The translations under genes and the position numbers were made by a program. This document shows positions 434-20,168 of a stretch of DNA of 64,000 bases, piece after piece. Location of the stretch: the NCBI RefSeq assembly GCF_900403705.1, contig NZ_OUNR01000016.1, positions 124,001-188,000 of the forward strand. Reading direction: 5' to 3'. How positions within the stretch are numbered: position 1 is the first letter of the stretch; every line of letters begins with the position of its first letter. Below the pieces are notes generated by a model that saw only the letters and a program-made list of their open reading frames with translations, did no database searches and was not told the origin of the DNA. This DNA comes from Nitrospira lenta. Its GTDB lineage: Bacteria > Nitrospirota > Nitrospiria > Nitrospirales > Nitrospiraceae.

Positions 434-471
434 GGCTGGCGTAGCTCAATGGCAGAGCAGCGGTTTTGTAA
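434..471 (+). repeat. Left attachment site: orphan 5' half of tRNA-Thr
   Basis: Bases 434-471 match 7312-7349 without a mismatch and diverge on both sides. The sequence covers tRNA bases 1-37, that is acceptor 5' strand, D arm, anticodon stem 5' strand and the whole anticodon loop, but has no 3' half. It is the left junction left when a tyrosine recombinase crossed over in the anticodon loop. It cannot give a functional tRNA. Confidence 0.9.
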
Positions 472-506
472 GCCTTTCTGATTCATCTACACAACCCCAT
501 GTCGGT

Positions 507-1005: not shown

Positions 1006-1383
1006 ATGAGACCAGCGGTAGCCCTCACGTTAATGTTACTGCTCCTGTTAGAAGGATGCACAAGCGTCGGCAGCTACGCCACATCCTTAGGTATCGAGGA
1101 TGCTGCACAAATCAAAGGCGCTGAGGCAGATTACCTAGCAGCGCTAGCTGGGTTTTCGCGGGCTGGGGTGCTCACACCTGAGGAAGCGGAACTCGAATAT
1201 CATTCCGAGCGGATGCGACTTAATGAAGGAACGTGGAGCAAGGCGCGTCTGGAGGGCTATCGGCAAGCTGTCCTTCGCGGGCAACCACGCGTGCATACCT
1301 ACAAACAACAATGTTTCTGGGTAGATGCTAGGAAAGACGTTCGGTGTAAGGGGCAATTATTGATTTCCGGCATTGGCAAGTGA
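1006..1383 (+). CDS. Small predicted lipoprotein of the element
   Basis: This 125-residue protein opens with a basic start, a Leu-rich core (ALTLMLLLLL) and the lipobox LEGC, with Cys18 as the lipidation site. The mature part is hydrophilic and looks helical around residues 30-90 (AAQIKGAEADYLAALAGF). A strong AAGGAG lies 10 bases before the ATG at 1006. It would be anchored in the inner or outer membrane. I do not recognise the family. It is the first convincing gene inside the left end of the tRNA-Thr element; surface lipoproteins on such elements sometimes act in entry exclusion, but nothing here shows that. Confidence 0.75.
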   Translation: MRPAVALTLMLLLLLEGCTSVGSYATSLGIEDAAQIKGAEADYLAALAGFSRAGVLTPEEAELEYHSERMRLNEGTWSKARLEGYRQAVLRGQPRVHTYKQQCFWVDARKDVRCKGQLLISGIGK

Positions 1384-1620: not shown

Positions 1621-1968
1621 ATGAGACGCCTTCTCTTCTACTCCTTCCTTCTCTATCTCATTCCAGCAATCCAGACGCTCCCAGCACACGCTGAACTGGA
1701 CTTATGGGGGCAGCCCTCACAGCTTGGGCCATCCATCCGGGATCAACCGTCTTCCGTTCCTCAGCAGTTCAGGCCGAACGGAAACGCAGGCTATCTGGGG
1801 AGCGACCTGCCGCCCAGCGACTACCAACCCGACGAAGCACTAAGACACCGATACGGAAGCGAGACTGACAGGACTGCCCCAAGCGCACCCCTCGACAACG
1901 GACAATACTCCAGCAGACCTAACCCGTACTGCACTAATGCCGAGTTGTGTGGTGGTTCGACTCAGTAG
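1621..1968 (+). CDS. Small secreted Pro/Ser-rich protein of unknown function
   Basis: Starting at the ATG at 1621, the 115-residue product has a clear signal peptide (MRRLLFYSFLLYLIPAIQ) with an AHA-E cleavage motif near residue 25. The mature region is hydrophilic, rich in Pro, Ser, Gln and Tyr, and holds two cysteines near the C-terminus (PYCTNAELCGG) that could form a disulfide. GAGG lies 8 bases upstream. The frame is open to an ATG at 1567, but that would bury the signal peptide, so 1621 is preferred. No family is recognised. Confidence 0.65.
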   Translation: MRRLLFYSFLLYLIPAIQTLPAHAELDLWGQPSQLGPSIRDQPSSVPQQFRPNGNAGYLGSDLPPSDYQPDEALRHRYGSETDRTAPSAPLDNGQYSSRPNPYCTNAELCGGSTQ

Positions 1969-2121: not shown

Positions 2122-2724
2122 ATGAAGCGGGTTGCGCTCTACGCCAGAGTCAGCACAGACGGGCAAACCACAGAGAACCAGCTCAGGGAACTCAGAGAGA
2201 CCGCCAAGCGCCACGGCTGGGAGATTACCGGGGAGTTCATTGACCGGGGCATTAGTGGGGCAAAGGGCAAGGAGGGACGGCCACAGTTTAATGCCCTGCA
2301 CACTGCGATAGCACGTAAAGAATGCGACCTGGTAGCCGCCTGGAGTGTGGACCGCCTTGGGAGGAGTCTCAAAGACCTGGTGGACTTCCTTGGGCAGGTG
2401 CATGCGAAGGGCATCGGCCTCTATCTCCATCAGCAGGGCCTCGATACTACCACTCCGGCAGGAAAGGCGTTGTTCGGCATGATGGGCGTCTTTGCGGAGT
2501 TTGAACGGGCGATGATCCAAGAGAGGGTTAAGGCAGGATTGTCGAGAGCGAAGGCCAACGGGACACGCCTTGGAAGGCCTCCTCTCGCTGCTTCTGCCGA
2601 TGGTTTGAAGGTGCAGCGGAGGGTACTGGATCTCCGGAAGAGTGGGCTGGGGATGTGCGCTATTGCGGAGAAGGTCGGCATCAGCTCGCGCACTGTCATG
2701 AAGATTGTTGCAGCGACAGCCTAG
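2122..2724 (+). CDS. Serine recombinase, resolvase/invertase family
   Basis: This 200-residue protein has the small serine recombinase layout. The N-terminal catalytic domain (about 1-135) carries YARVST, with nucleophile Ser11 and Arg9, then DRGISG, the conserved SVDRLGRS and FAEFERAMIQERVKAGL (E-helix). A C-terminal helix-turn-helix (about 165-200, IAEKVGISSRTVMKI) reads DNA. Length matches Tn3-resolvase/Hin enzymes. AGGAGG sits ahead of the ATG. It cuts and rejoins DNA through a phosphoserine link. In this element it could resolve dimers or invert DNA; the inverted repeat at 2044-2073 is a candidate site. Confidence 0.93.
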   Translation: MKRVALYARVSTDGQTTENQLRELRETAKRHGWEITGEFIDRGISGAKGKEGRPQFNALHTAIARKECDLVAAWSVDRLGRSLKDLVDFLGQVHAKGIGLYLHQQGLDTTTPAGKALFGMMGVFAEFERAMIQERVKAGLSRAKANGTRLGRPPLAASADGLKVQRRVLDLRKSGLGMCAIAEKVGISSRTVMKIVAATA

Positions 2725-2983: not shown

Positions 2984-3314
2984 CCCGCTGTAGTCCTCGC
3001 AGTTCTCTTCCCCTGCCTCTCTCTTCGTTTGCTCCCTTCTCAATAGCCTGTCAGCATTGATAGGCTCCCTCCGGCCAGACCCATCCACTAGTGGGAACAG
3101 CCTCCTTAAGCCTCGGAAGTTCATACCTGTCTGCCTTACCCTGGACTTACAGAGAACCCACCGCTGTGGATTAGGTAGCACTTTAGGGTGTCTGGTCAAG
3201 GCCAAGACAAGCGCCCCCTCTCATGGCGGCTTAACAGATTGTTTTAGTTCAGTGTTTCTGTGAATTAAGCCATTAGGTGCCCCTTACAGAGGAATGAAGC
3301 GGGGAATTACCCGT

Positions 3315-3381
3315 GACTTATGAAGAACAAGCCGCCCATTAACCCCGACTTACAAGAAGAACCGCCATTAAGGCGGACTTA
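3315..3381 (+). repeat. Short imperfect direct repeats (iteron- or operator-like)
   Basis: GACTTA occurs at 3315-3320, 3347-3352 and 3376-3381. CCGCC(C)ATTAA lies between the copies (3332-3342 and 3362-3371), giving units of 29-32 bases. A further GACTTACA-type copy is seen near 3144. The 2984-3487 stretch has no convincing gene. Its repeats lie before a run of DNA-binding genes, so they could be iterons of an origin, ParB/HTH protein sites or transfer-origin repeats. Function is inferred only. Confidence 0.4.
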
Positions 3382-3487
3382 CGACTAACCAGCCCCTCCC
3401 CTCATCCTTCGTTTCATCGCTTGCGTCTCAGCCCCCTGTCTATTATTCGCACGGACCACACCTACCACCCAAAGGAGAACCACCCCT

Positions 3488-3832
3488 ATGCACGATCCCT
3501 TAAACAACCCGGTGACACAGCCGCAACACAACGGGCGATGTGTCCTTCACGTTCGCCATGCAACCGCTGTGCGGAGGCTTCGGACGGATGGCGAATCGGA
3601 GGCCGCCTTGATGTGGTTGAAGTCTGCACTTGCAGGCGAGGCACCAGCCGACAGGCCAAGTATTTCCCTTCTCCTACGTCGCGCTCTCAAACGCTATAGA
3701 GGTCATGTCTCTACCCTCCTCGGAACACCTCAGGGCCTCGAATATGAACGCCTCCTCGTAAGGCAAGGCAGTCGCCTGCCCACACTCCGCAGACCCACCA
3801 AATGCCAAGCGGTGGAAGTTACCCAGTCCTAG
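3488..3832 (+). CDS. Small basic protein of unknown function
   Basis: This 114-residue, strongly basic product starts at ATG 3488, with AAAGGAG 10 bases upstream. A central stretch (about 37-80; EAALMWLKSALAG, SLLLRRALKRYRGHV) looks like two amphipathic helices rich in Arg and Lys, consistent with a small nucleic-acid-binding protein. The C-terminus is Arg/Pro-rich and probably disordered. It sits just after the repeat array at 3315-3381 and ahead of the HTH/ParB-like pair, so a partner role at those repeats is possible. No family is recognised. Confidence 0.55.
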   Translation: MHDPLNNPVTQPQHNGRCVLHVRHATAVRRLRTDGESEAALMWLKSALAGEAPADRPSISLLLRRALKRYRGHVSTLLGTPQGLEYERLLVRQGSRLPTLRRPTKCQAVEVTQS

Positions 3833-3979
3833 CCTAACTGCCCTCCCGGTAATCCTCTTTCTCTGACCTCTCAGCCCGCAATTCAGTAAGGCACCCAGAC
3901 ACCCCTTCCGCTCTTCCTCTATTTGCCCTAAGACGCACGCACACCCTCTAACCCATGCCAGGAGTCGAACCACACCACA

Positions 3980-4180
3980 ATGACCACGCAGAAGCCCCGC
4001 CCCAAAATTCACCCTGATAGAAAACAACAGTTTACACAGTCAGCTCAACACCTCTTCCGCGTGTCTCGGACTGGTACGACGTGGTGTACCTGCGGACGAT
4101 GGACCTTATGGGAGGCTTCGAAGGAATCAGCCAGGAGGTCGCACAACTATCACTTGGAGAATCTCACCCGATGCCGATAG
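3980..4180 (+). CDS. Possible 66-residue small protein (element)
   Basis: A frame from ATG 3980 to TAG 4180 encodes a basic peptide with a Cys-x-Cys and Trp-rich segment (TTWCTCGRWTLWEASKE) followed by SHNYHL, which recalls a small zinc-finger-like unit. AGGAG lies 13 bases upstream, rather far. It overlaps the next gene by 10 bases if that gene starts at 4171, or by 100 if it starts at 4081, so only one of these readings of 4081-4170 is likely right. Bases 3833-3979 contain nothing else recognisable. Confidence 0.4.
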   Translation: MTTQKPRPKIHPDRKQQFTQSAQHLFRVSRTGTTWCTCGRWTLWEASKESARRSHNYHLENLTRCR

Positions 4181-4845
4181 TAAGTCAGGCAGTGGCCCAA
4201 GCGGCCCTGGAGGAGTGCCTACGGAATTGCGCAGAAGGCGAACGAGTTTTCAAAGAGAAGCAGGCCACCACGACAGGCCGAGACCCCTCTCAGCCCTGGC
4301 ACCCGCTCTTCAATCCAAACCCCGAAGAACTTCTAGAAGCCCATATCAGGCACAAGGAGGGGTTAGAACAGAAACCCTTTGGGGAATTATGGGGTGCTGT
4401 GCTGGCTGGGGTGGAGAGTGGGGAGTATCGGTCAGGGAAAGATATCGCTGACAAACTCGGCAAGCCGTACTCCTGGGTCTTGAGGTTGTTGCAAGTTGCC
4501 GTGAAACAGCGACGGTTCACCAGGGAGCAGCTCCGGGCCTACTTTAGGAAACAGCGCATCCAGCACGCCGGGGTCACAGCTCAACGTAGTATCCGAAAAC
4601 CCAACCGAGTGACCCGCGACACATTCGCAGAGGTTTTCATGGCGAAAGACCCCGCGCTGACGTTTGACCTTGTGGTGCGGTTGCTCCGGGTTGGTTGTTG
4701 GAAATGCGTTGGGGACTTCACTACACACTTTGCTCAGTCGAAGAAGTGGGTGCAGGCTTTCAGGCGGCTGCTAATCCGGGAACTGGTGATGAGTGCACAA
4801 GAGTGGAAGGCGTGTTGGAGCGTGGGAAGAAGGAGTAGGCGGTGA
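4171..4845 (+). CDS. HTH DNA-binding protein paired with ParB-like gene
   Basis: From ATG 4171 the product has 224 residues; upstream ATGs at 4081 and 4102 are alternatives. A helix-turn-helix-like segment (SGEYRSGKDIADKLGKPYSW) lies at about residues 81-100. The C-terminal half is rich in aromatic and basic residues (KWVQAFRRLLIREL). The stop overlaps the GTG start of the ParB-like gene by four bases (GTGA), so the two are translationally coupled. This suggests a two-component DNA-binding module of the element. The HTH is judged by eye and no named family is assigned. Confidence 0.7.
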   Translation: MPIVSQAVAQAALEECLRNCAEGERVFKEKQATTTGRDPSQPWHPLFNPNPEELLEAHIRHKEGLEQKPFGELWGAVLAGVESGEYRSGKDIADKLGKPYSWVLRLLQVAVKQRRFTREQLRAYFRKQRIQHAGVTAQRSIRKPNRVTRDTFAEVFMAKDPALTFDLVVRLLRVGCWKCVGDFTTHFAQSKKWVQAFRRLLIRELVMSAQEWKACWSVGRRSRR

Positions 4846-5675
4846 AGCCCAACACTTGGCTTGCCCAATTCAATGCCCTCAAAGGACGCGGCGTTGATAC
4901 CCTTACCGTCAGTGAGCGGGGACTTCGCCGTCTTCCGATTGAGGAGGTTCGCACGCTTGAGGCTGTCTTTCAGCCAAGGCAGCTTGAGGATGCAGCAGCA
5001 AGCGGGAGGCACCTAGGGGAATTGCTCCGGGTGCTCCGCGATCATGCCGCCCTCGACCCTATCGCCGTGATGAAGATTGGTGGAGACTGGTACTGCATAG
5101 ATGGCCATTACAGACTAGAAGCCTATAGGCAAGAGCGGGAGGCTGGAAGCAGGCGTAGCCACCTCCCCGTCAAAGTATTCAGTGGAACTCTAGAGGAGGC
5201 GCTTCGGGCCAGCATCGAAGTGAATGCTCCAGATAAATTGAACCTGACCAAAGAGGACAAGTTAGAAGCTGCATGGCGGCTGGTGGTGTTGGGGCAAGAC
5301 TCCGTGGCACAGATCAGCCACACCTCAACCATTGCCGAGAGAACCGTTCAGCGCATGCGGCGAGGGTTGGAGCAGGCGCGGACGCTGCACCCCTCTCAGC
5401 CGTTTGAGACCTGGACATGGGCCAAGGTCAAGGACCTGCTCCGGGGCGAACTGAAGGAAGTGCAGACCGCATGGCAGGATGCAAAGGCGGGGGAATGGGC
5501 CAAGCAGCTAGCACGGACCTTCAAGGGGCTTCCTTCTGAACACCCGCGTGTATTCGCTAAAGCACTCCTGCGGTACAACGCGGAAACTGCGAAAGCGATT
5601 GCAGAAGAGATCCACCAAGCAACACAACAGGGGAAATTACGGGCTGTCGTGTTTGAGGAAGCGCCGGATTTCTAG
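4842..5675 (+). CDS. ParB/KorB-like DNA-binding protein
   Basis: The 277-residue product starts with GTG at 4842, with AAGGAG upstream inside the previous gene. Residues about 60-110 match a ParB N-terminal (Srx-like) domain: LDPIAVMKIGGDWYCIDGHY, followed by RLEAYRQE. DGHYR stands where chromosomal ParB has the arginine-rich CTP motif. A central HTH (about 150-180, VAQISHTSTIAERTVQRM) fits the ParB/KorB fold. The last 100 residues are unassigned. Family members bind centromere-like or operator repeats. No ParA ATPase is visible in the element, so regulation or DNA processing is as likely as partitioning. Confidence 0.82.
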   Translation: MKPNTWLAQFNALKGRGVDTLTVSERGLRRLPIEEVRTLEAVFQPRQLEDAAASGRHLGELLRVLRDHAALDPIAVMKIGGDWYCIDGHYRLEAYRQEREAGSRRSHLPVKVFSGTLEEALRASIEVNAPDKLNLTKEDKLEAAWRLVVLGQDSVAQISHTSTIAERTVQRMRRGLEQARTLHPSQPFETWTWAKVKDLLRGELKEVQTAWQDAKAGEWAKQLARTFKGLPSEHPRVFAKALLRYNAETAKAIAEEIHQATQQGKLRAVVFEEAPDF

Positions 5676-5899
5676 GCTGGTTGTTGGGGGCGACACACTT
5701 GAGGGGGTGCCAAGTCACCCCTACCCCACCCGCTATGGGTCATGCATAAGCGTGCGAAAGAAGAAGGCCTTCGGGCTACTTCACGCCTTAGAACGAGCGT
5801 GACAGCTTGTCACGTTCATTTCCGGTCAAGAAAACCCTTCAGGACCAGCCGGAAGTCGAGTTCGTCCAGGATCATTCCGTAAACACACAACACATTTTT

Positions 5900-5944
5900 G
5901 AGCGGTCTATCTCTGAGGGGAACCCTCTTGGAGGGAGACCGCTC
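5900..5944 (+). terminator. Branched hairpin before the excisionase gene
   Basis: GAGCGGTCT (5900-5908) pairs exactly with AGACCGCTC (5936-5944). Inside, CCCTC (5923-5927) pairs with GAGGG (5931-5935). TTTCATTTC follows directly, and the AGGAG of the excisionase gene lies within 15 bases. It can be read as an intrinsic terminator insulating xis/int from the ParB-like operon, or as an attenuator. The stretch 5676-5899 contains no gene. Confidence 0.5.
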
Positions 5945-5964
5945 TTTCATTTCATAGGAGACTC

Positions 5965-6153
5965 ATGAGCAGCACATTTTTGACAATGAATGAGGCGGCA
6001 GAGTATCTAGGCGTATCAAAATTGACTCTATATGGGTGGGTCTCCGCACGAAAGCTGACCTTCATAAAGGTTGGGCGTCTTGTGAAATTCAAGCAAGATC
6101 AACTAGACAAGTGGATTGACCTACACACTGTCAAGGCACGAGTAGCCGTATAG
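5965..6153 (+). CDS. Excisionase-type HTH protein (MerR/HTH_17 fold)
   Basis: This 62-residue protein is almost entirely one winged-helix domain of the excisionase family: MNEAAEYLGVSKLTLYGWVS (recognition helix), then IKVGRLVKFKQDQLDKWID (wing and dimer helix). AGGAG precedes the ATG. It lies 20 bases before the integrase gene. Family members bend attachment-site DNA and steer the integrase toward excision, and often repress integrase expression. A general MerR-like regulator is the alternative, but the position makes a recombination directionality factor the better reading. Confidence 0.85.
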   Translation: MSSTFLTMNEAAEYLGVSKLTLYGWVSARKLTFIKVGRLVKFKQDQLDKWIDLHTVKARVAV

Positions 6154-6173: not shown

Positions 6174-7283
6174 ATGGGGCTGACCAAGAGACCTGATAGC
6201 TACTATGTGGAGTTCCGGGTGATTGACAGTGCAGACGGAAAGTCTTTGGTGTTGGCGAGTGGTGTACAGGGAGCAAGAAAGAAACGCTGGAAGGTGGGGT
6301 GTCTGAATAAGACCGTTGCCAGGGAAATGGAAGCAGCGATTAAGACGCGCATTCTTCTAGGCCAGGAACAGACCGAACAGGCGAAACCTGTTCTATTCAA
6401 AGAATGGGCAAAAACATACCTCGACATGGAGTCTGTCAAAACATTACGCAGCTATCAGGATCGCGTAGAGATCATGGGCAAGCAATTGATCCCGTTCTTT
6501 GGTGGGAAAATTCTTGGCGAGATCAAGCCCGCCGATGTTGAGACCTATCGAGGGCAACGGAAGAAGCGAAATGGGAGTATGGCCAGCACACAGACAATCA
6601 ACAATGATCATATCGTTTTGAAGCATGCCCTCAATGTGGCCGTTCGGCGAGATCTCCTAGTCAGCAATCCAGCGGCCAGAGTGCCAATGCCCGACCCACA
6701 AAATGCACGTGATCGGGTGTTGAGTGAGGAGGAATGGGGCAAGTTGTATCAGGCAGCAAAACCCCACCTACAACCAGTGCTCCTTCTCGCCTACCAACTC
6801 GGGCAGCGGCTGAGCGAAATCGTTAACCTCACCTGGGACCGCGTAGACTTGAAGCGCGGGTTTGTCACGCTCCGAAGCCAAGACACTAAGACAAAAAAGC
6901 CCCGGCAAGTTCCAATTACTCCAGATGTACGAGGGACGTTACAGCAGCTTGCTAAGTTGCGGAGTTTGGCTACTCGCCATGTCTTCTTGTATCAGGGAGA
7001 ACCGCTGAAGGACTTCAGAACGGCATTCCGCACAGCACTTAAGGACGCCGGTGTAATCGGCTTCAAGTTCCATGACTTGAGGCACTGCGCTGCAACCAAT
7101 CTAAGGCGTGCTGGGGTGGATACTACCACGGCTATGCAGATCGTTGGGCATACCTCCCCGCAGATGTGGAAGCGCTACAATCACATACGGGAGGAAGACT
7201 TGTCCCAGGCAGCAACCAAGCTCGGAAAGTATCTCCAGCAGACCACGCCCAGAACACTTGACGGGCAAGCGGAGAGCAGGTAG
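6174..7283 (+). CDS. int: Tyrosine recombinase (phage-type integrase)
   Basis: This 369-residue integrase has an N-terminal arm-type region, a SAM-like core-binding domain (about 75-170) and the catalytic domain (about 180-345). All catalytic residues are visible: Arg212 (LGQRLSEI), Lys near 239-242, His300 and Arg303 (HDLRH), His326 (VGHTS) and Tyr335 (KRYNHI). It catalyses site-specific recombination between the element and the anticodon-loop region of tRNA-Thr. The gene ends 29 bases before the intact tRNA. Its last codons also hold a good sigma70 promoter that points into the tRNA. Confidence 0.96.
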   Translation: MGLTKRPDSYYVEFRVIDSADGKSLVLASGVQGARKKRWKVGCLNKTVAREMEAAIKTRILLGQEQTEQAKPVLFKEWAKTYLDMESVKTLRSYQDRVEIMGKQLIPFFGGKILGEIKPADVETYRGQRKKRNGSMASTQTINNDHIVLKHALNVAVRRDLLVSNPAARVPMPDPQNARDRVLSEEEWGKLYQAAKPHLQPVLLLAYQLGQRLSEIVNLTWDRVDLKRGFVTLRSQDTKTKKPRQVPITPDVRGTLQQLAKLRSLATRHVFLYQGEPLKDFRTAFRTALKDAGVIGFKFHDLRHCAATNLRRAGVDTTTAMQIVGHTSPQMWKRYNHIREEDLSQAATKLGKYLQQTTPRTLDGQAESR

Positions 7284-7311: not shown

Positions 7312-7349
7312 GGCTGGCGTAGCTCAATGGCAGAGCAGCGGTTTTGTAA
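7312..7349 (+). repeat. Right attachment site inside intact tRNA-Thr
   Basis: The 38-base copy is identical to 434-471 and ends at the last base of the anticodon loop. Sequence to its right (7350 onward) is the original chromosomal 3' half of the tRNA gene; sequence to its left belongs to the element. Confidence 0.88.
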
Positions 7350-7387
7350 ACCGCAGGTTGGAGGTTCAATTCCTCTCGCCAGCTCCA
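7313..7387 (+). tRNA. tRNA-Thr (anticodon TGT)
   Basis: A full cloverleaf is visible. The acceptor stem GCTGGCG pairs with CGCCAGC, followed by discriminator T and encoded CCA (7385-7387). The anticodon stem GCGGT/ACCGC encloses the loop TTTGTAA, with TGT at 7345-7347. The T arm is GGAGGTTCAATTCCTC. It reads ACA (and other ACN) codons. The 5' half was supplied by the integrated element. Confidence 0.97.
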
Positions 7388-12815: not shown

Positions 12816-14471
12816 ATGACCACTCGACTCCCCTGGTGGCAATCCGCCGTGGTGTATCAAATCTATCCATGGAGTTTTCAGGACTCCAACGGCGACGGGA
12901 TCGGCGATATTCCCGGCATCATTTCCCGGCTCGACTATCTGAATGACGGCACGGCGGACTCGCTCGGTATCGACGCGATCTGGCTCTCGCCGATCTATCC
13001 GTCCCCGATGGTCGATTTCGGCTACGATGTGGCTGACTTTTGCACGGTCGACAGCCGGTTCGGGACGCTCAGCGACTTTGACCGCCTGGTGAAGGAATGC
13101 CACAGGCGCGGGATCCGGCTGATTATGGATCTGGTGCTGAACCACACATCCGATCAGCATCCGTGGTTTCAAGACAGCCGTTCTTCTCGAAGCTCGGCCA
13201 AACGAGACTGGTATTATTGGGCCGACGGCAAAGGATTCGGGCGGCGGCCCAATAACTGGAATGCGCGATTCGGCGGTTCATCGTGGACCTGGGATGCTCA
13301 CAGTGGACAGTATTATCTGCATTCGTTTCTAAAAGAGCAGCCGGATTTGAACTGGCACAATCCCGCCGTACGAACCGCCATGTGGGACGTCGTAAAGTTT
13401 TGGCTCGACCGCGGGGTGGATGGATTTCGCTTGGACGCCATCAATTGGCTCGGCAAGGACAAGCGCTGGCCGAATAATCCGTTCAAGCTCGGTCTCCGAG
13501 GCTATACCAGACAAGAGCACCGGTATGACCGGGATCAACCTCTTGGGCACCAAGCCTTGAAGGAATTGCGCGCGCTCCTGTCCGGCACTCCCGATGTTGT
13601 CTTGATCGGGGAAGCCTCGGCCGATACCCCGGGTGGGCCGTCCGCGTTTTACGGCAATGGGTATGATGAGCTGCACATGCTGTTCGATTTTCGCCTCTTG
13701 AAGTCGCCCTGGCAGGCCGAACGGTTTGCCCCGCTTCTCGAAGCCGGCGACCGGGTAATTCCTCGCGGCGGTTGGCCGACCGTGGTGTTCAGCAATCACG
13801 ATCAGCCCCGGCATATCGATCGCTATGGAGCCAACGGCGACGCGGAGCGGCGCGCGCGAGCCGCGGCTGTGTTGCTCTTTACCTTGCGCGGGACCCCGTT
13901 CATCTACTATGGGGAGGAACTCGGGATGCGCAACACCCCGTTGCGATACCGCGATCTTCGGGATCCCTATACCAAACGATATTGGCCGTTTCGCATCGGG
14001 CGTGATCCGGCGCGCACACCGATGCAATGGGATGGATCCGAGCAGGCGGGATTTTCAACCGGGCGTCCCTGGCTGCCGGTGTCCCCGCACTATCGGGAGT
14101 TGAACGCGGCGAGGGAAGGAGCCGATCCCGCCTCGTTGCTGAATCTCTATCGACGGCTTATCCGGCTCCGGAAAACCTTTCCGGCACTCAGCGAGGGAAC
14201 GTATCGGCCGATTGGGACGGTGCCGGCCGGCTGTCTCGTGTTCATCCGGGAAGACGCGTCTCCTGCAAAACGCGACAGCGACATGTTGGTGGCGGTCAAC
14301 TTTTCTTCCGAGAGCCGCACCGTGACAGTGCCGGACGTCACAAGCCCCGGCGTGATACGGCTCTCGACGTGGAGTGGGACGGATTCAGCCACGCCATGGA
14401 TTGCAGCGCGGTTCCATTTGGAACCGGACGAGGCCATCATCGTCTCGCTGGGGAACCAGACCGCAGCGTGA
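12816..14471 (+). CDS. GH13 alpha-glucosidase / alpha-amylase family enzyme
   Basis: The 551-residue cytoplasmic enzyme has the whole GH13 barrel: YQIYPWSFQDSNGDGIGDIP at the start, [14 protein letters not shown] (conserved region I), GFRLDAIN with nucleophile Asp207, LIGEAS with acid/base Glu266, and FSNHDQPR with Asp329. The C-terminal beta domain is at about 440-551. Sequence style (DWYYWADGKG, TPMQWD) points to the alpha-glucosidase/oligo-1,6-glucosidase branch that trims short malto- or isomalto-oligosaccharides. It converges on glgB and opens the glucan/trehalose block. Exact substrate preference cannot be read from sequence. Confidence 0.9.
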   Translation: MTTRLPWWQSAVVYQIYPWSFQDSNGDGIGDIPGIISRLDYLNDGTADSLGIDAIWLSPIYPSPMVDFGYDVADFCTVDSRFGTLSDFDRLVKECHRRGIRLIMDLVLNHTSDQHPWFQDSRSSRSSAKRDWYYWADGKGFGRRPNNWNARFGGSSWTWDAHSGQYYLHSFLKEQPDLNWHNPAVRTAMWDVVKFWLDRGVDGFRLDAINWLGKDKRWPNNPFKLGLRGYTRQEHRYDRDQPLGHQALKELRALLSGTPDVVLIGEASADTPGGPSAFYGNGYDELHMLFDFRLLKSPWQAERFAPLLEAGDRVIPRGGWPTVVFSNHDQPRHIDRYGANGDAERRARAAAVLLFTLRGTPFIYYGEELGMRNTPLRYRDLRDPYTKRYWPFRIGRDPARTPMQWDGSEQAGFSTGRPWLPVSPHYRELNAAREGADPASLLNLYRRLIRLRKTFPALSEGTYRPIGTVPAGCLVFIREDASPAKRDSDMLVAVNFSSESRTVTVPDVTSPGVIRLSTWSGTDSATPWIAARFHLEPDEAIIVSLGNQTAA

Positions 14472-14480
14472 CGGTGCGCG

Positions 14481-16412
14481 CTATTCCGGGCTCTTGAAAA
14501 ATAGGATGGCCAGCGGCGGCAACGTCAGCGTAAGCGAGTGCGACCGCCCATGCAGGGGCACCGGCATCGCTTCGACTCCACCGATATTGCCCCAGCCGCT
14601 TCCGCCATACAGCGTCGCGTCGCTGTTCAAGACTTCCTTCCAGAATCCGCCGCACGGGGCACCGATCCGATAGTTGGTCCGGGGCACCGGCGTGAAATTG
14701 CACGCCACGAGCATCTGACTGCCGGCAGACTTCCCTTTCCGCAGCATGCTGATGACGCTGGATTCCGCGTCGGTACAATCGATCCATTCAAATCCCGCCG
14801 GATCCAAGTCCCGTTCATGCAGCGCCGGCTCGTCGCGATACAGCCGGTTGAGGTCCGCCACCCAGCGCTGCAGGCCCTTATGCGCGGGCTGGTCCAGCAG
14901 ATGCCACTCCACGCTGCGATCGTGAGCCCACTCGCTGCGTTGGCCGATTTCCCCTCCCATGAAGATCAGCTTTTTCGCCGCCTGCGCATACATGTAGCCG
15001 AACAAGAGACGAAGGTTGGCGAACTTCTGCCAATCATCGCCGGGCATCTTCCCGAGCAAAGAGCCTTTCCCATACACCACTTCGTCATGCGACAGCGGCA
15101 AGACAAAGTTTTCGTGAAAGGCGTACAGCATCCGGAAGGTCAACTTGTCGTGATGATACCGTCGGAAAAATGGATCCAGGCTCATGTAGGCAAGCGTGTC
15201 GTGCATCCAGCCCATGTCCCATTTGAGGCCGAACCCGAGGCCGCCAAGATACGTCGGCCGTGAGACCATGGGCCAGGACGTCGATTCTTCGGCCGTGGTT
15301 TGCACATCCGGATACTGCGCATAGATTTCTTCGTTCAACCGCCGCAAAAAACCAATGGCTTCGAGGTTTTCCTTTCCTCCGTACTGATTCGGCACCCATT
15401 CCCCTTCTTTGCGCGAATAATCCAGATACAGCGTGGAGGCTACCGCGTCCACGCGAATTCCGTCGATATGGTACTTATCCATCCAGAAGAGCGCGCTGCT
15501 GATCAGAAAGCTGCGTACTTCATTCCGGCCGAAATTGAAAATGTAGGTCTGCCAATCGGGATGGTACCCTTGCCGCGGATCGGCATGTTCAAAGAGGTGG
15601 GTCCCGTCGAAATAGCTCAACCCATGCGCGTCGGTCGGAAAATGCGACGGCACCCAATCCAAAATAACGCCGATGCCATGCCCGTGCAATTCGTCGATCA
15701 AGAACATCAAATCCTGCGGCGTGCCGTAGCAGCCAGAAGAGGCAAAATAGCCTGTCGTTTGATAGCCCCAGGATCCGAAAAACGGATGGTCCATGATCGG
15801 CAGAAACTCGACGTGGGTAAAGTTCATCTCCCGCAGGTATCCCGGCAGCACCGCTGCCAGCTCTCGATAGCTCAAGGAGCGATCGCCTTCGTCTGGCACC
15901 CGTTTCCAGGATCCGATATGCATTTCATAGACCGACTGCGGCGCATCCAGCGCATTGTGGGCGCGCCGGGTCTTCATCCACTCGGCGTCCCGCCACGCGT
16001 ATTCGCAATCCCACACGATCGAGGCCGTCTTCGGAGGAATCTCATTGAAGATGGCAAAGGGATCCGTCTTCTCAACCTGATAGTCGTTGAAGCGCGAGCG
16101 AATATGGAATTTATAGAGGTCTCCTTTCCCGACGCCCGGCAGAAAGCCTTCCCAGATTCCCGAATGCTCGCGCATATGCAGCGGATGCGCGCCCGGCTTC
16201 CAATCATTGAATACCCCAATGACCGAGACCTCCGCCGCATCCGGCGCCCAGACTCCAAACGTCGTTCCGCTCACACCGCCCCGCTTGACCGGATGGGCGC
16301 CTAACTTGTCATACAGATGGAAATGCGTGCCTTCGTTGAACAGGTAGAGATCATCCTGGCTCAACAGACTCGTTTCGTTCACCGTGTGTGTCATATCGTG
16401 CGTCTTCGCCAT
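14481..16412 (-). CDS. glgB: 1,4-alpha-glucan branching enzyme GlgB
   Basis: This 643-residue GH13 enzyme has an N-terminal CBM48 (about 28-125, [20 protein letters not shown]), a barrel with nucleophile Asp322 (GIRVDAVAS), acid/base Glu375 (TTAEES) and Asp443 ([14 protein letters not shown]), and a C-terminal beta domain. It moves chain segments from alpha-1,4 to alpha-1,6 positions and so branches the glucan made by GlgE. GAGGTG precedes the ATG at 16412. It is the last gene of the minus-strand block after glgE and the maltokinase, which is the usual GlgE-pathway order. Length is typical of short-form GlgB. Confidence 0.97.
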
Positions 16413-16492
16413 AGTGTCACCTCTTGACGGATGTTACAGCCACTACCCTGCGCGCGCGTATCGAGACACGTGTGTTCACAGCATCCACGTCG

Positions 16493-18154
16493 TCACGCCC
16501 GTTCCGACCCGGCCATCTCCAACAGATCGACGAGACCGTGCAGCGGAATCTCAACCCAATCAGGCCTATTATTCAGTTCATATCCCAATTCATAGATGGC
16601 CTTCTCGACCAAACACACATCAAACAATACGCGCACATCCCGCTCCTCTTTCGGCCAAAATTTCGTGGCGCTCGCGATGCCGAGATAGGCTTTCAGAAAT
16701 GCGACGCTGGCCCAATCGGACCAAAATTGAGCCCACAGCACACTCTCTCCGGGAATGCCCTGCGCGGCGACGGCAAGGCCGGTCCGCTTTCCCGCAAGAA
16801 AGGCGAACGGCGCATAGTGAAACGAGCGGACCATGCCGGCCACGTCCAGCATGGGCGGATGTTTTCTGCGGCGTGAGGCCAAGGACCTGGCCGGCTCTCC
16901 TTCAAAATCGATAATCACAAAATCGCTTCCCGTGGATAACACCTGGCCGAGGTGGTAATCGCCGTGGCACCGGATAAGGGAAACGGGCCGTTCGAGATCA
17001 CGGAACGCGCGGAAGGTTCGGTCCAACGCCGGCTTGAGATCGAACAAGCGCCGCGCCTCGGTTTGTCCCTTTGGGGAAAGCTGCGCAACTCGTTCCTTGA
17101 GCAGGGCCATGGTCTGCTCCGCAGAGGCCGCCATCGTGACGTACCGCTCGTGCCGATACGCGCTCGTCAGCCCTTCGGGAGTAAACGCCGGATCGTCCTC
17201 AATCTGACTGAGCGCCAGATGCAACTCGGCAGTCCGCCGGCCTAAACATTCGGCCGACTGCACATACCCACCGAGCAGCTCTCGCGCGACGGGAAGATAC
17301 TCCTCCCGCGCAAGATCAAGGAGCGGACGCCCCCGGCCGGGCGGCGCCGCTTCCCGGTAGAGGTCTCCGGCAGTCCGAACCATAAATTGATCGACCGCAT
17401 GCAGGCTCTGTTGCCACGCATCCCCGTCATTGCGGATGAATTGCTGCAGCAGCGCCAGCGTCATCGGATCGCCTGAAGTCCGCCGGTATTCAATCGCGCC
17501 GGCAATCGGCGGAACGCAGGGAAATCGCACAGCGGTCAAGTGCCGTCCGATTTCAAGGTCGGGGTTCATGCCTTCTTCCAATCGCCGATAGAATTTCAAG
17601 ATCACCTGCCCGCCGCAGGAGAGAGAGGTGTTGCTCTGCTCGGCCTTCAGGACCGTCGGGTCTTGCGGATACGCGACATCTACAAGCTCACGAAAGGCCT
17701 TGGTCGGAGTTGCGGCGGCGGTTCCGGCCGTACCGTGAAACTGCTCCCCCTGCCCGATGGCCTCGAACAGCCTGCGCGAGAGCGCCGGATTCCAGAGCGC
17801 ATCGTATAGGATGCCCTGCTCTTCCCCGCTGTCTGAACGCACCGTGAGCGGCGCAAGCACCGCCTGGGGAGCGGTCTCTTGAAGACGGATCGCCTCGCTT
17901 CCGAACGCCGCCGTCACCGGCATCTGATACGTTTCGGATGTCCCATCGCTGTACTCGACGCGCACCAGCAGGAGCCGCATCGTCGCCGTGCCCGTGGAAA
18001 CCGCGACGGATTCGACGATGGAGACCGCCTTGATACGGCGGGCTTTGCCGCCGAACCACCGCTTGGTCTTGAGAATGTCCGGCAGCAGCGCCGTCAAGGC
18101 CTCGGCGCCGGCGCCTTCGCATAATGATTCCCACTGGTGCATGGCCGTCAACAT
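16493..18154 (-). CDS. mak: Maltokinase (ATP:maltose 1-phosphotransferase)
   Basis: The product phosphorylates maltose to maltose 1-phosphate, the GlgE substrate. It has an N-terminal cap (about 25-120, LLPDILKTKRWFGGKARRIK) and an aminoglycoside-phosphotransferase-like kinase lobe with the catalytic loop RCHGDYHLGQ and metal-binding VIIDFEGEP. Both match Pep2/Mak proteins. ATG 18154 is chosen because an AGGAGG lies between it and the glgE stop at 18174. The frame is open to 18211, but that would overlap glgE. It sits between glgE and glgB, the classical context. About 553 residues. Confidence 0.93.
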   Translation of the reverse strand: MLTAMHQWESLCEGAGAEALTALLPDILKTKRWFGGKARRIKAVSIVESVAVSTGTATMRLLLVRVEYSDGTSETYQMPVTAAFGSEAIRLQETAPQAVLAPLTVRSDSGEEQGILYDALWNPALSRRLFEAIGQGEQFHGTAGTAAATPTKAFRELVDVAYPQDPTVLKAEQSNTSLSCGGQVILKFYRRLEEGMNPDLEIGRHLTAVRFPCVPPIAGAIEYRRTSGDPMTLALLQQFIRNDGDAWQQSLHAVDQFMVRTAGDLYREAAPPGRGRPLLDLAREEYLPVARELLGGYVQSAECLGRRTAELHLALSQIEDDPAFTPEGLTSAYRHERYVTMAASAEQTMALLKERVAQLSPKGQTEARRLFDLKPALDRTFRAFRDLERPVSLIRCHGDYHLGQVLSTGSDFVIIDFEGEPARSLASRRRKHPPMLDVAGMVRSFHYAPFAFLAGKRTGLAVAAQGIPGESVLWAQFWSDWASVAFLKAYLGIASATKFWPKEERDVRVLFDVCLVEKAIYELGYELNNRPDWVEIPLHGLVDLLEMAGSERA

Positions 18155-18173
18155 GGACTGCTCGGTCCTCCTG

Positions 18174-20168
18174 CTACAGAAAATAGTCAAAATCCTGTTC
18201 CGTGCGAACACGCCTGCGAATACGGAAAATATGCGCGGGAGCCGAATGGGGGTTCACCTCAATATAGTTGCGCTCTCCCTGCCACAGGTAATGCGCGTGC
18301 GTCAGGAGATCCTCCACTTGGAACGGCTGATCGGCATCGAGCCCTAGGCTCGCAAGATCCAATTCCAGCCATCCGGAATGCACGTGATGGGGACTCAAAT
18401 TCACCACGACCAGAATGACATTGGATCCGTCTGCCGTGCGCTTGCTGTAGCAGAGCAACTGCTCGTTCGCGATGGCGTGAAAGCGGAGACTCCCATCGCG
18501 CTGAAGCGCGGGATTGTCCCGCCGTATCCGATTCACGCAGCCGATGAATTCCTGCAAACTATCCGGCCTATCCAGATCCCATCGCTTGATTTCATACTTT
18601 TCAGAATCCGCATATTCTTCGCTTCCGGCTTCGCGAGGCAGATGCTCGCCGAGTTCATACGCCGGACCGTAGATCCCGTAGCTGGCTCCCAGCGTGGCGG
18701 CCAGCACCAGCCGAGACATAAAGACGGGGCGTCCGCCATGCTGCAGCTGCTCCGTCAGAATATCCGGCGTATTCGGCCAGAGATTCGGCCGGAGATATTC
18801 CCGCACATCCGACTGCGTGAGCTCCGTGAAATATTGCGTGAGCTCTGCCTTCGTCGTGCGCCAGGGGAAATAGTTGTAGGATTGGGAAAAGCCGATTTTA
18901 GCCAGACGATTCATCACTTTCGGCCGCGTGAACGCTTCAGCCAGAAACACGACGTCCGGATGCGTGCGCTTCACCTCGCCGATGAGCCATTCCCAAAACG
19001 GAAACGGCTTGGTGTGAGGATTGTCCACGCGGAATATTCGAATGCCCTGCTCGATCCAATAATCGACCACCTGCTTCAATTCATCCCACAATGCCCGCCA
19101 CTGGTCCGTCTCAAACTCCAGCGGGAATATATCCTGATATTTCTTCGGCGGATTCTCCGCATACTGCACCGTGCCATCCGGCCGGATCCGGAACCATTCG
19201 CGATGCTCTTTCACATAGGGATGGTCCGGGGAGCACTGAAATGCGATGTCCATCGCGATCTCGATGTCATGGGTGCGGGCCCGTTCCATCAAGCGTCGAA
19301 AATCTTTGAGCGTCCCCAACGCCGGATGAATCGCGGTGTGTCCCCCGTCCGGCGAGCCGATCGCCCAGGGACTGCCGTGGTCTTCCGGCCGGCTGGTCGG
19401 CGCATTGTTCTTACCCTTCCGATGAGTCTTTCCGATGGGATGGATGGGAGGAAGATAGAGCACGTCAAACCCCATGGAGGCGATGTAGGGCAGCCTCTTC
19501 TCACAGTCTTTGAAGGTGCCGTGCACGCCGGGCTTAGTGGAACAGGACCGCGGAAACATTTCATACCAGGTGCTATAGCGGGCTTTCTCGCGATCGACAA
19601 TGACGGCAAATTCAACCTCGTAAAGGGAGGCCTGGGCTCGATCCGGATGTTTCGCCATTATCCCGGCCAACTCGGCGCTCAGCGCTGCGCGAATACGGTC
19701 CGCTTCAGGGGCGTCCGTCGCGCGGAGCTCCTTCACCCATCGAGACAGCGCCTGTTCCACTTCTTTCGGGGCCTGCGTGGCGGCCTTTTCAATCAACTGT
19801 GCGCCGATGAGAAGGTCTAGTCGAAGATCTTGGTTCGCGTCGCGTTTCTTAATCAGATCCCGGCGCCAGGTGAGAAAGTGATCGACCCATCCCGTGACGG
19901 TGTAGCGATACTGCCCGATGTTCGAGAGAGGGAATGCCGCGCGCCACCGGTCGTTTCCGATGGCCTCCATCGGGATCTCGGTCCATTGCGGAACCGACTC
20001 AGCCCGGTAGCGGAGAGCCACGGCGAGCGCATCGTGTCCGTCGGCGAACACGTCGGCCTCCACGATCAGTTCGTCGCCGATCGTCCGTTTAATGGGAAAG
20101 CGGCCTCCGTCTACCGCAGGCCGCACGCCCTCAATGATCACCCGTTGTCTGCCGCGGTCATCACGCAT
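18174..20168 (-). CDS. glgE: Alpha-1,4-glucan:maltose-1-phosphate maltosyltransferase GlgE
   Basis: This 664-residue GH13_3 enzyme adds maltosyl units from maltose 1-phosphate to the non-reducing end of alpha-1,4-glucan. Seen features are the N-terminal beta domain, the helical insertion (about 110-180), the family signature YEMFPRSCS (about 202-210), nucleophile Asp382 (IRIFRVDNPHTKPFPFWEW) and acid/base Glu411 (VFLAEAFTRPKVM). SYNYFPWRTTKAEL is also typical of GlgE. The maltokinase gene follows at once. Together with TreS and GlgB it gives a complete glycogen-making route that does not need GlgA. Confidence 0.96.
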   Translation of the reverse strand: MRDDRGRQRVIIEGVRPAVDGGRFPIKRTIGDELIVEADVFADGHDALAVALRYRAESVPQWTEIPMEAIGNDRWRAAFPLSNIGQYRYTVTGWVDHFLTWRRDLIKKRDANQDLRLDLLIGAQLIEKAATQAPKEVEQALSRWVKELRATDAPEADRIRAALSAELAGIMAKHPDRAQASLYEVEFAVIVDREKARYSTWYEMFPRSCSTKPGVHGTFKDCEKRLPYIASMGFDVLYLPPIHPIGKTHRKGKNNAPTSRPEDHGSPWAIGSPDGGHTAIHPALGTLKDFRRLMERARTHDIEIAMDIAFQCSPDHPYVKEHREWFRIRPDGTVQYAENPPKKYQDIFPLEFETDQWRALWDELKQVVDYWIEQGIRIFRVDNPHTKPFPFWEWLIGEVKRTHPDVVFLAEAFTRPKVMNRLAKIGFSQSYNYFPWRTTKAELTQYFTELTQSDVREYLRPNLWPNTPDILTEQLQHGGRPVFMSRLVLAATLGASYGIYGPAYELGEHLPREAGSEEYADSEKYEIKRWDLDRPDSLQEFIGCVNRIRRDNPALQRDGSLRFHAIANEQLLCYSKRTADGSNVILVVVNLSPHHVHSGWLELDLASLGLDADQPFQVEDLLTHAHYLWQGERNYIEVNPHSAPAHIFRIRRRVRTEQDFDYFL

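Follow-up and report, generated by a model that had tools for sequence, protein, structure and literature searches.

The window analysed here, a stretch of 64,000 nucleotides from Nitrospira lenta, contains a 6.9-kb integrative element at a tRNA-Thr gene, with att repeat copies that start 6,878 bp apart and with an integrase and an excisionase-type protein at its tRNA end. In line with this host, a protein encoded next to the element shares 88% identity with proteins from two Nitrospira sp. MAGs. Within the element, a repeat array precedes a run of genes for a small basic protein (SBP), a small CxC...H peptide, a helix-turn-helix (HTH) protein and a ParB-like protein; all four were found where a first-pass annotation had put them, including the GTGA overlap of the HTH and ParB-like open reading frames (ORFs) at 4842-4845. 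To judge from its sequence, the locus seems reasonably likely to be an early operon, read from T7-type promoters, in a small integrative element that resembles a phage satellite, and the element itself is best read as a reduced representative of a T7-type-phage satellite family that was not found described.

The array consists of about six 23-bp units on the same strand, approximately 120-355 bp upstream of the operon, with the shared form ATTA-N7-CTTA (Table 1). The units were scored with a matrix that contains no window sequence and was built from the annotated promoters of T7 (13) and T3 (11) and from 11 SP6 sites found via the most repeated 10-mer. At a score of at least 4, this combined matrix finds 28 sites in the 64 kb, four of them on the plus strand of positions 2991-3487, a number that was reached by none of 1000 dinucleotide shuffles (mean 0.19); at a threshold of 6, there are three sites in this stretch, again with 0/1000 shuffles. 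Among 40 upstream regions of other ORFs of the window, which served as a control, five had one site and none had two. When the promoter of a Klebsiella T7-like phage was compared with both strands of the 64 kb, the next best match after the unit at 3169-3191 reached 15 of 23 positions. The similarity to known T7-family promoters is above chance, and the units can with good confidence be regarded as predicted promoters for phage polymerases of the T7/T3/SP6 class. A sigma-70 scan of 3100-5990 yielded no sites, with 0.9 expected.

Comparable sites occur in front of some related operons. In a scan of the 400 bp that lead up to the first gene at 18 loci, the window included (L038 was anchored on its first HTH ORF, and L008 contained 100 masked bases), 16 sites with a score of at least 4 lay on the coding strand, compared with 4.1 expected, and four on the opposite strand; when the window is excluded, the 17 remaining loci had 12 coding-strand sites, compared with about 4.0 expected, and again four on the other strand. 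The best site had a p value of at most 0.02 in six loci (the window, L030, L031, L032, L034 and L038), and seven of the 33 sites that scored at least 9 in all loci (about 306 kb) were situated in the upstream stretches, which make up about 1% of the sequence. A 20-base pattern from the upstream region of L034 was found in 33 stretches of IMG/VR, by name on 12 contigs of 40.3-41.3 kb with several copies each, and all copies had the orientation of the plus strand of the locus. One of the 12 contigs was checked; over 8,000 bases it does not differ from Klebsiella phage SH-Kp 152234, and it has a gene for a T7-type polymerase. Its promoter copies end with GGGAGA or GGGAAG, where L034 has GGAAGA.

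It is conceivable that the array is instead an operator through which the operon is repressed by one of its own products, the SBP or the HTH protein, and that the likeness to promoters is a by-product of base composition and CTTA words. The first gene indeed encodes a small basic protein with a ribbon-helix-helix (RHH)-like pattern by eye, and repeats precede the first gene in several elements. Nevertheless, such an explanation appears unlikely, given the outcome of the dinucleotide shuffles and the strand bias of the sites in the siblings (12 versus 4), and the RHH assignment itself was not confirmed: none of ten SBP members had an RHH match in the libraries, there was no match in the PDB, NikR-like and antitoxin-type RHH proteins gave no sensible alignment with the SBP on their own, and a single-sequence structure model had a pLDDT of 47.5.

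Several results, in addition to the unconfirmed RHH fold, weigh against the promoter and satellite interpretation. At a threshold of 8, one site remains in 2991-3487, which was matched by 31 of 1000 shuffles; all scores of the window array (maximum 12.8) are lower than those of the 35 source promoters (13.1-31.8, self-scored), and with a T7-only matrix the best of the six units, at 3169, ranks just 47. The best-site p value was borderline (0.05-0.10) in three loci (L033, L067 and L089) and higher than 0.15 in nine of the 18 (L037, L071, L035, L036, L040, L008, L064, L065 and L066), so that L037 and L071, the other ParB-bearing elements with upstream sequence, have no recognisable promoters. 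Moreover, 26 of the 33 sites that scored at least 9 are outside the coding-strand stretches ahead of the first gene, no phage with promoters of the window type was found, and a scaffold motif, and with it a recognised gene for capsid redirection, is missing from the window element.

A polymerase of the T7 type was not detected in 175 genomes of the host's family, 114 of which are at least 90% complete, with a model that matches the polymerases of SP6 and of the Klebsiella phage and does not match two T7-like contig fragments. Therefore, an infecting phage would have to supply the enzyme. A search for a helper with the window-type promoter pattern gave ten single hits, which were taken as chance; since all hits were single, no helper can be named. 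When a matrix of the window units was applied to four T7-like or hit contigs, three were within the range of the shuffles, and the minus strand of L121, with 6 versus a shuffle maximum of 5, was not convincing.

Viewed simply as repeats, the array is less regular than the three GACTTA/CCGCCATTAA units that had been proposed for it. GACTTA does occur three times (3315, 3347 and 3376), and CCGCCATTAA occurs in two copies, an exact one (3362-3371) and one into which a C is inserted (3332-3342), which precede the third and second GACTTA, respectively; the third GACTTA is not followed by CCGCCATTAA. The array therefore comprises two complete units and a partial one, and weaker units are situated further upstream at 3134, 3169 and 3271. 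The significance of the array depends on the test used. The gapped tandem-similarity score of 34 exceeded the maxima of 300 shuffles (29) and of 400 random 141-bp stretches (30), and the count of ungapped 14-mers with three mismatches was reached by none of 40 shuffles; results for shorter ungapped words were mixed (8 of 40 shuffles as high for 7-mers, 36 of 40 for 10-mers), and word counts in a shorter stretch were equalled by 17, 8 and 7 of 60 shuffles. With up to two mismatches allowed, the unit pattern was not found again in the host genome, and its backwards control was not found at all. Similar promoter-like repeats of 33 bp precede two SBPs that are 35% identical, in L031 and L032 of genome G434, and have no further match in that genome at three mismatches. 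Three CTATTGA repeats lie before the SBP of L037 (9529-9710); 8 of 300 shuffles equalled their tandem score, and they show no likeness to T7 promoters.

Tandem repeats ahead of a run of DNA-binding genes, a ParB family match and the helicase-like or phrog_4756 proteins that occupy the ParB position in siblings would all suit a minimal replication or partition module, with iterons or a parS-like site in the repeats to which the SBP, the HTH or the ParB-like protein would bind. This explanation was dropped as the first choice after the promoter results, because the units fit phage promoters, and the similar repeats in G434 precede SBPs that are only 35% identical. In addition, the Pfam, NCBIfam and PHROGs scans of the window element, which covered ten chosen ORFs, revealed no ParA, as the first-pass annotation had said, and the ParA-binding motif that the available part of PMC12704722 describes is absent from four aligned ParB sequences. 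We regard the iteron or parS explanation as improbable. The earlier view that the locus serves a mobile element as a module for regulation or maintenance is supported; binding of the repeats by the HTH and ParB-like proteins is not supported.

The preferred interpretation, a satellite-like element read by a phage polymerase, gains its context from related elements in the host's family. Twenty loci (L numbers), including the window, were annotated with profiles built in this analysis, whose seeds score high by construction; L039 and L041, with SBP matches inside chromosomal genes, and the weak places L018-L025 were left out, and L068 and L069 were kept though weak. A gene order recurs, with some loci lacking some of the genes: serine recombinase (14/20), SBP, HTH protein, scaffold-domain protein, zinc protein, a large or ParB-like gene, and integrase. 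In 15 of the 20 loci, the slot for the large gene is filled by one of three protein types, namely a helicase-like protein (seven loci: L032, L033, L034, L035, L036, L038 and L040), a phrog_4756-type protein (four: L008, L030, L064 and L066) or a full-length ParB-like protein (four: the window, L037, L070 and L071). No slot protein was seen in the other five (L031, L065, L067, L068 and L069), for some of which contig ends may be the explanation, and L089, without a detectable SBP, is a fifth phrog_4756 case. It should be noted that "helicase-like" refers to motifs seen by eye; one of three scanned proteins matched Pfam ResIII at 1e-3, which is under the cut-off, and neither the helicase-like nor the phrog_4756 proteins had a convincing match in the PDB. 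For the phrog_4756 protein of L030 (10760-12229), distant relatives were seen in 66 Vibrio phages, ICP1 among them, and in five Shewanella phages (71 records in total).

The SBP was found with E values of at most 1e-3 at 18 places in 14 of the 175 genomes, including that of the host; its profile did not find it in L038, L070 and L071, although the protein at the SBP position in L071 matches with an E value of 3.3e-5 and a probability of 72%. Ten of the 20 loci have an HTH protein according to the profile, and seven of these are seeds. Direct repeats at the tRNA end bound elements of 6.9-13.7 kb in 8 of the 11 loci tested (none were found in L071, L008 and L089). In L037, the ParB-bearing sister shares its tRNA-Arg with another element (13804-18653), which carries a further integrase and a replication initiator of the phrog_453 family.

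In the siblings, a protein with a D-P-x-Y...Y-R motif, often in two copies, is similar to the C-terminus of the T7 scaffold family. PF05396 was recognised in L032 (4.5e-12), L038 (6e-10), L035 (2.3e-8) and L037 (6.7e-7) and, under the cut-off, in L089 (4.9e-5) and L071 (4.8e-4), and all six scanned scaffold-domain proteins match phrog_1052, "head assembly", at 4.1e-7 or better. The domain is present in 8 of the 20 loci (five are profile seeds), among them the ParB-bearing L037 and L071, and also in L089 and L090. A PF05396 search found 14 places in 10 of the 175 genomes and none in 14 control genomes; eight places are C-terminal matches of the satellite kind, four lie in a 648-aa frame and look unrelated, and two are in genome G020. 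In L037 and L071, the other two ParB loci with upstream sequence, the scaffold-domain gene is the one directly before ParB, and conservation of an HTH/ParB pair is therefore not supported.

L089 also encodes an internal virion protein resembling T7 gp14 (PF24072, 5.4e-18). The same locus carries a BamHI-type restriction gene, a DNA methylase gene and an AlbA-type gene (15628-18473), which are probably anti-phage cargo. A 5.9-kb contig with a T7-type portal and scaffold (L088, G020:C222) was found in a genome of the host's genus and may represent a phage or contamination; its portal has 88 relatives in IMG/VR, of which 80 were kept.

The ParB-like protein of the window element has homologues in L037, L070 and L071. 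The N-terminal ParB fold was recognised by profile only: a profile of the four relatives matched PDB entries with E values of 1.6e-4 to 2.1e-3, including ParB (4umk, 1.6e-4) and Noc (7nfu, 1.2e-3), and Pfam did not name ParB_N in the window protein (best DUF7586, 5.5e-4, under the cut-off) and gave 0.0078 for ParB_N in the L037 protein, also under the cut-off. A single-sequence structure model of the window protein had a mean pLDDT of 44.6. The four full-length relatives retain FQPR, GH[YHS]R and N..D..N; GH[YHS]R, present in 4/4 sequences, corresponds to the Box II GxxR of the ParB CTPase switch, and N..D..N stands at the divergent Box III position. A ParA-binding motif of the kind shown in the consulted part of PMC12704722 was not seen by eye in the four aligned sequences. 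At an E value of at most 1e-8, the protein occurs at five places in four of the 175 family genomes, one being a fragment in L032; relatives were not found in plasmids, phages, IMG/VR or GTDB contigs, and among 146 genomes of close relatives only in the host's own genome. The L032 ORF that matches the ParB N-terminus (reverse strand, 14358-14933) joins this N-terminus to a segment resembling, by eye, the sequence before ParB in L070, and looks like a recombinant ParB gene. A Cas2b match of the L037 ParB in PADLOC (0.0053) was taken as chance, and six window proteins had no PADLOC match.

Orphan ParB-fold proteins are, according to the sections of PMC12704722 that were available, frequent on mobile elements and mostly lack the ParA motif; loss of Box III is common among them, their ligand can be CTP, ATP or GTP, and mutants of the GxxR arginine serve there as negative control. 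The window protein fits this group as far as it is described in these sections, by the missing ParA motif, the apparently divergent Box III, the retained GxxR and its place on a mobile element; it differs in a C-terminal part that is known only from a few relatives and in having no match in plasmid or phage collections. Compared with ParABS, the window has a ParB N-terminal fold without a ParA in the ten ORFs and without a ParA-binding motif. We tentatively suggest that the protein may be a clamp in copying or control of the element.

Upstream of the ParB-like gene, ATG 4171 is a better start of the HTH gene than GTG 4081, as GGAGAA lies ahead of it and the ORF overlaps the end of the zinc-peptide ORF; thus, the genes for the zinc peptide, the HTH protein and the ParB-like protein are probably translationally coupled. 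A profile of seven HTH proteins, the window protein included, covers residues 96-163 of the latter (counted from 4081), with a weak second copy at 196-251 (i-E 1.3e-4, from a search of two sequences), and a BLAST comparison of one half of the protein with the other gave nothing. The HTH protein is 42% identical to a sibling protein over 64 residues (E 1.5e-12) and had no match in Pfam and NCBIfam, PHROGs matches of 0.087 or worse, and no relatives in plasmids or IMG/VR.

Table 1. Features of the integrative element in the window
Feature	Position	Strand	Characteristics
attL	434..474	+	41-bp copy of tRNA-Thr(TGT) 5' part; 98% direct repeat of 7312-7352
Small lipoprotein-like ORF	1006..1383	+	lipoprotein by eye; no library match above cut-off
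Small secreted-type ORF (by eye)	1621..1968	+	59% identity over 71 aa to sibling locus L064
Serine recombinase / invertase	2122..2724	+	Pfam Resolvase 4.3e-45; match in 14/20 loci
T7-family promoter-like unit (weak)	3134..3156	+	T3-only matrix rank 94/127,956 positions
Promoter-like unit, Klebsiella-phage type	3169..3191	+	19/23 to Klebsiella T7-like phage promoter; SP6-only rank 8
T7-family promoter-like unit	3271..3293	+	combined score 7.5; SP6-only rank 14
Promoter-like unit, first GACTTA	3305..3327	+	combined score 12.8, best in 64 kb, both strands; SP6-only rank 24
Promoter-like unit, second GACTTA	3337..3359	+	T3-only rank 1/127,956; 16/23 to one T3 promoter
Promoter-like unit, third GACTTA (weak)	3366..3388	+	score 2.2; T3-only rank 54
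Small basic protein (SBP), conserved first gene	3488..3832	+	ribbon-helix-helix-like pattern by eye
Small CxC...H (zinc-type) peptide	3980..4180	+	tblastn relatives: L034 2.5e-4, L071 0.001, L066 0.012; also by profile
HTH protein, possibly two HTH copies	4171..4845	+	ORF open from GTG 4081
Orphan ParB-fold protein	4842..5675	+	phrog_1033 E 4.8e-8; homologues L037, L070, L071
Excisionase-type HTH	5965..6153	+	TIGR01764 3.2e-17
Tyrosine integrase	6174..7283	+	Pfam Phage_integrase 1.2e-28; 69% identity in L037
attR	7312..7352	+	start of intact tRNA-Thr gene 7313-7387

With an integrase and an excisionase of its own, the element agrees with a satellite in this respect, and a satellite lifestyle is somewhat favoured by its sequence. 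Relaxase and known Rep genes were missing from the ten scanned ORFs, in agreement with the first-pass annotation, and so were primase, portal, capsid and terminase genes (the siblings were scanned in part only); Rfam matched only the tRNA-Thr and its fragment, the latter under the gathering score. The element is the smallest of the eight with known ends, it lacks the scaffold domain, and no replication enzyme was recognised in the ten ORFs, all of which would be in line with a decayed prophage or satellite remnant that has no present function. However, the named ORFs are open and overlap in the manner of an operon, and ParB, Xis and Int are 53, 58 and 69% identical to those of L037, which makes decay the least likely of the alternatives considered here.

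Satellites with some of these properties are known. The SaPI protein CpmB is a mimic that outcompetes the scaffold of the helper (PMC12409344, available part), and the siblings resemble the SaPI satellites with CpmB/Rcm, as far as described there, in encoding a protein that shares the end of a phage-type scaffold; here, in contrast, the domain is of the T7 type and absent from the window member, no terminase was found in the scanned ORFs, and the host is of the Nitrospira type. PICMI elements of Vibrionaceae, with a prototype at fis, are, according to the portion of PMC10803314 consulted, satellites of virulent phages and need a primase. The window element is similar to them in its few genes, its integrase and AlpA-type protein, the lack of a capsid-remodelling gene and a virulent helper (presumed here), but differs in that no primase was found in its ten ORFs and in the T7-type promoter-like array. 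With the promoters of T7, T3, SP6 and the Klebsiella T7-like phage, the window units share a 23-bp one-strand architecture, and they diverge from them at the CTTA core. T7's family is described, in general terms and in the part of PMC10134795 available, as strictly lytic. None of the literature matches listed describes T7-type phages as satellite helpers, by their titles and the beginnings of their abstracts, and no publication on Nitrospira together with a phage satellite was found; for both, most subscription literature was outside the scope.

A satellite of this kind might work as follows. In the uninfected cell the operon would be silent or low, given that the genomes of the host's family yielded no polymerase of the T7 type. 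Upon infection by a T7-type phage, the single-subunit RNA polymerase of the phage would read the array, the DNA-binding proteins would be made and, together with Xis and Int, they would bring about excision, followed by copying or upkeep of the element, with the infecting phage supplying the virion. In siblings, the T7-scaffold-like domain would serve capsid redirection, as a satellite would need; the window member would do without the domain. The ParB-like protein, in the slot of the helicase-like and phrog_4756 proteins, would most likely act as an NTP-gated DNA clamp for copying or control and not in ParA-driven partition. The wider proposal, to which we give a little less than an even chance, is that a family of Nitrospira satellites is coupled to virulent T7-type phages at the level of transcription: tandem promoters for the helper's class of polymerase would turn on an early operon only during infection, mimics of the T7 scaffold would redirect the capsid and, in a minimal lineage to which the window element belongs, a ParB-fold protein would take the place of the replication enzyme.

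If this is true, the satellite elements would be an infection sensor that can be tested directly, with a single polymerase gene as the trigger. They would also point to as yet unseen T7-type phages of nitrifying bacteria, and an orphan ParB-fold protein would gain a place in a satellite.

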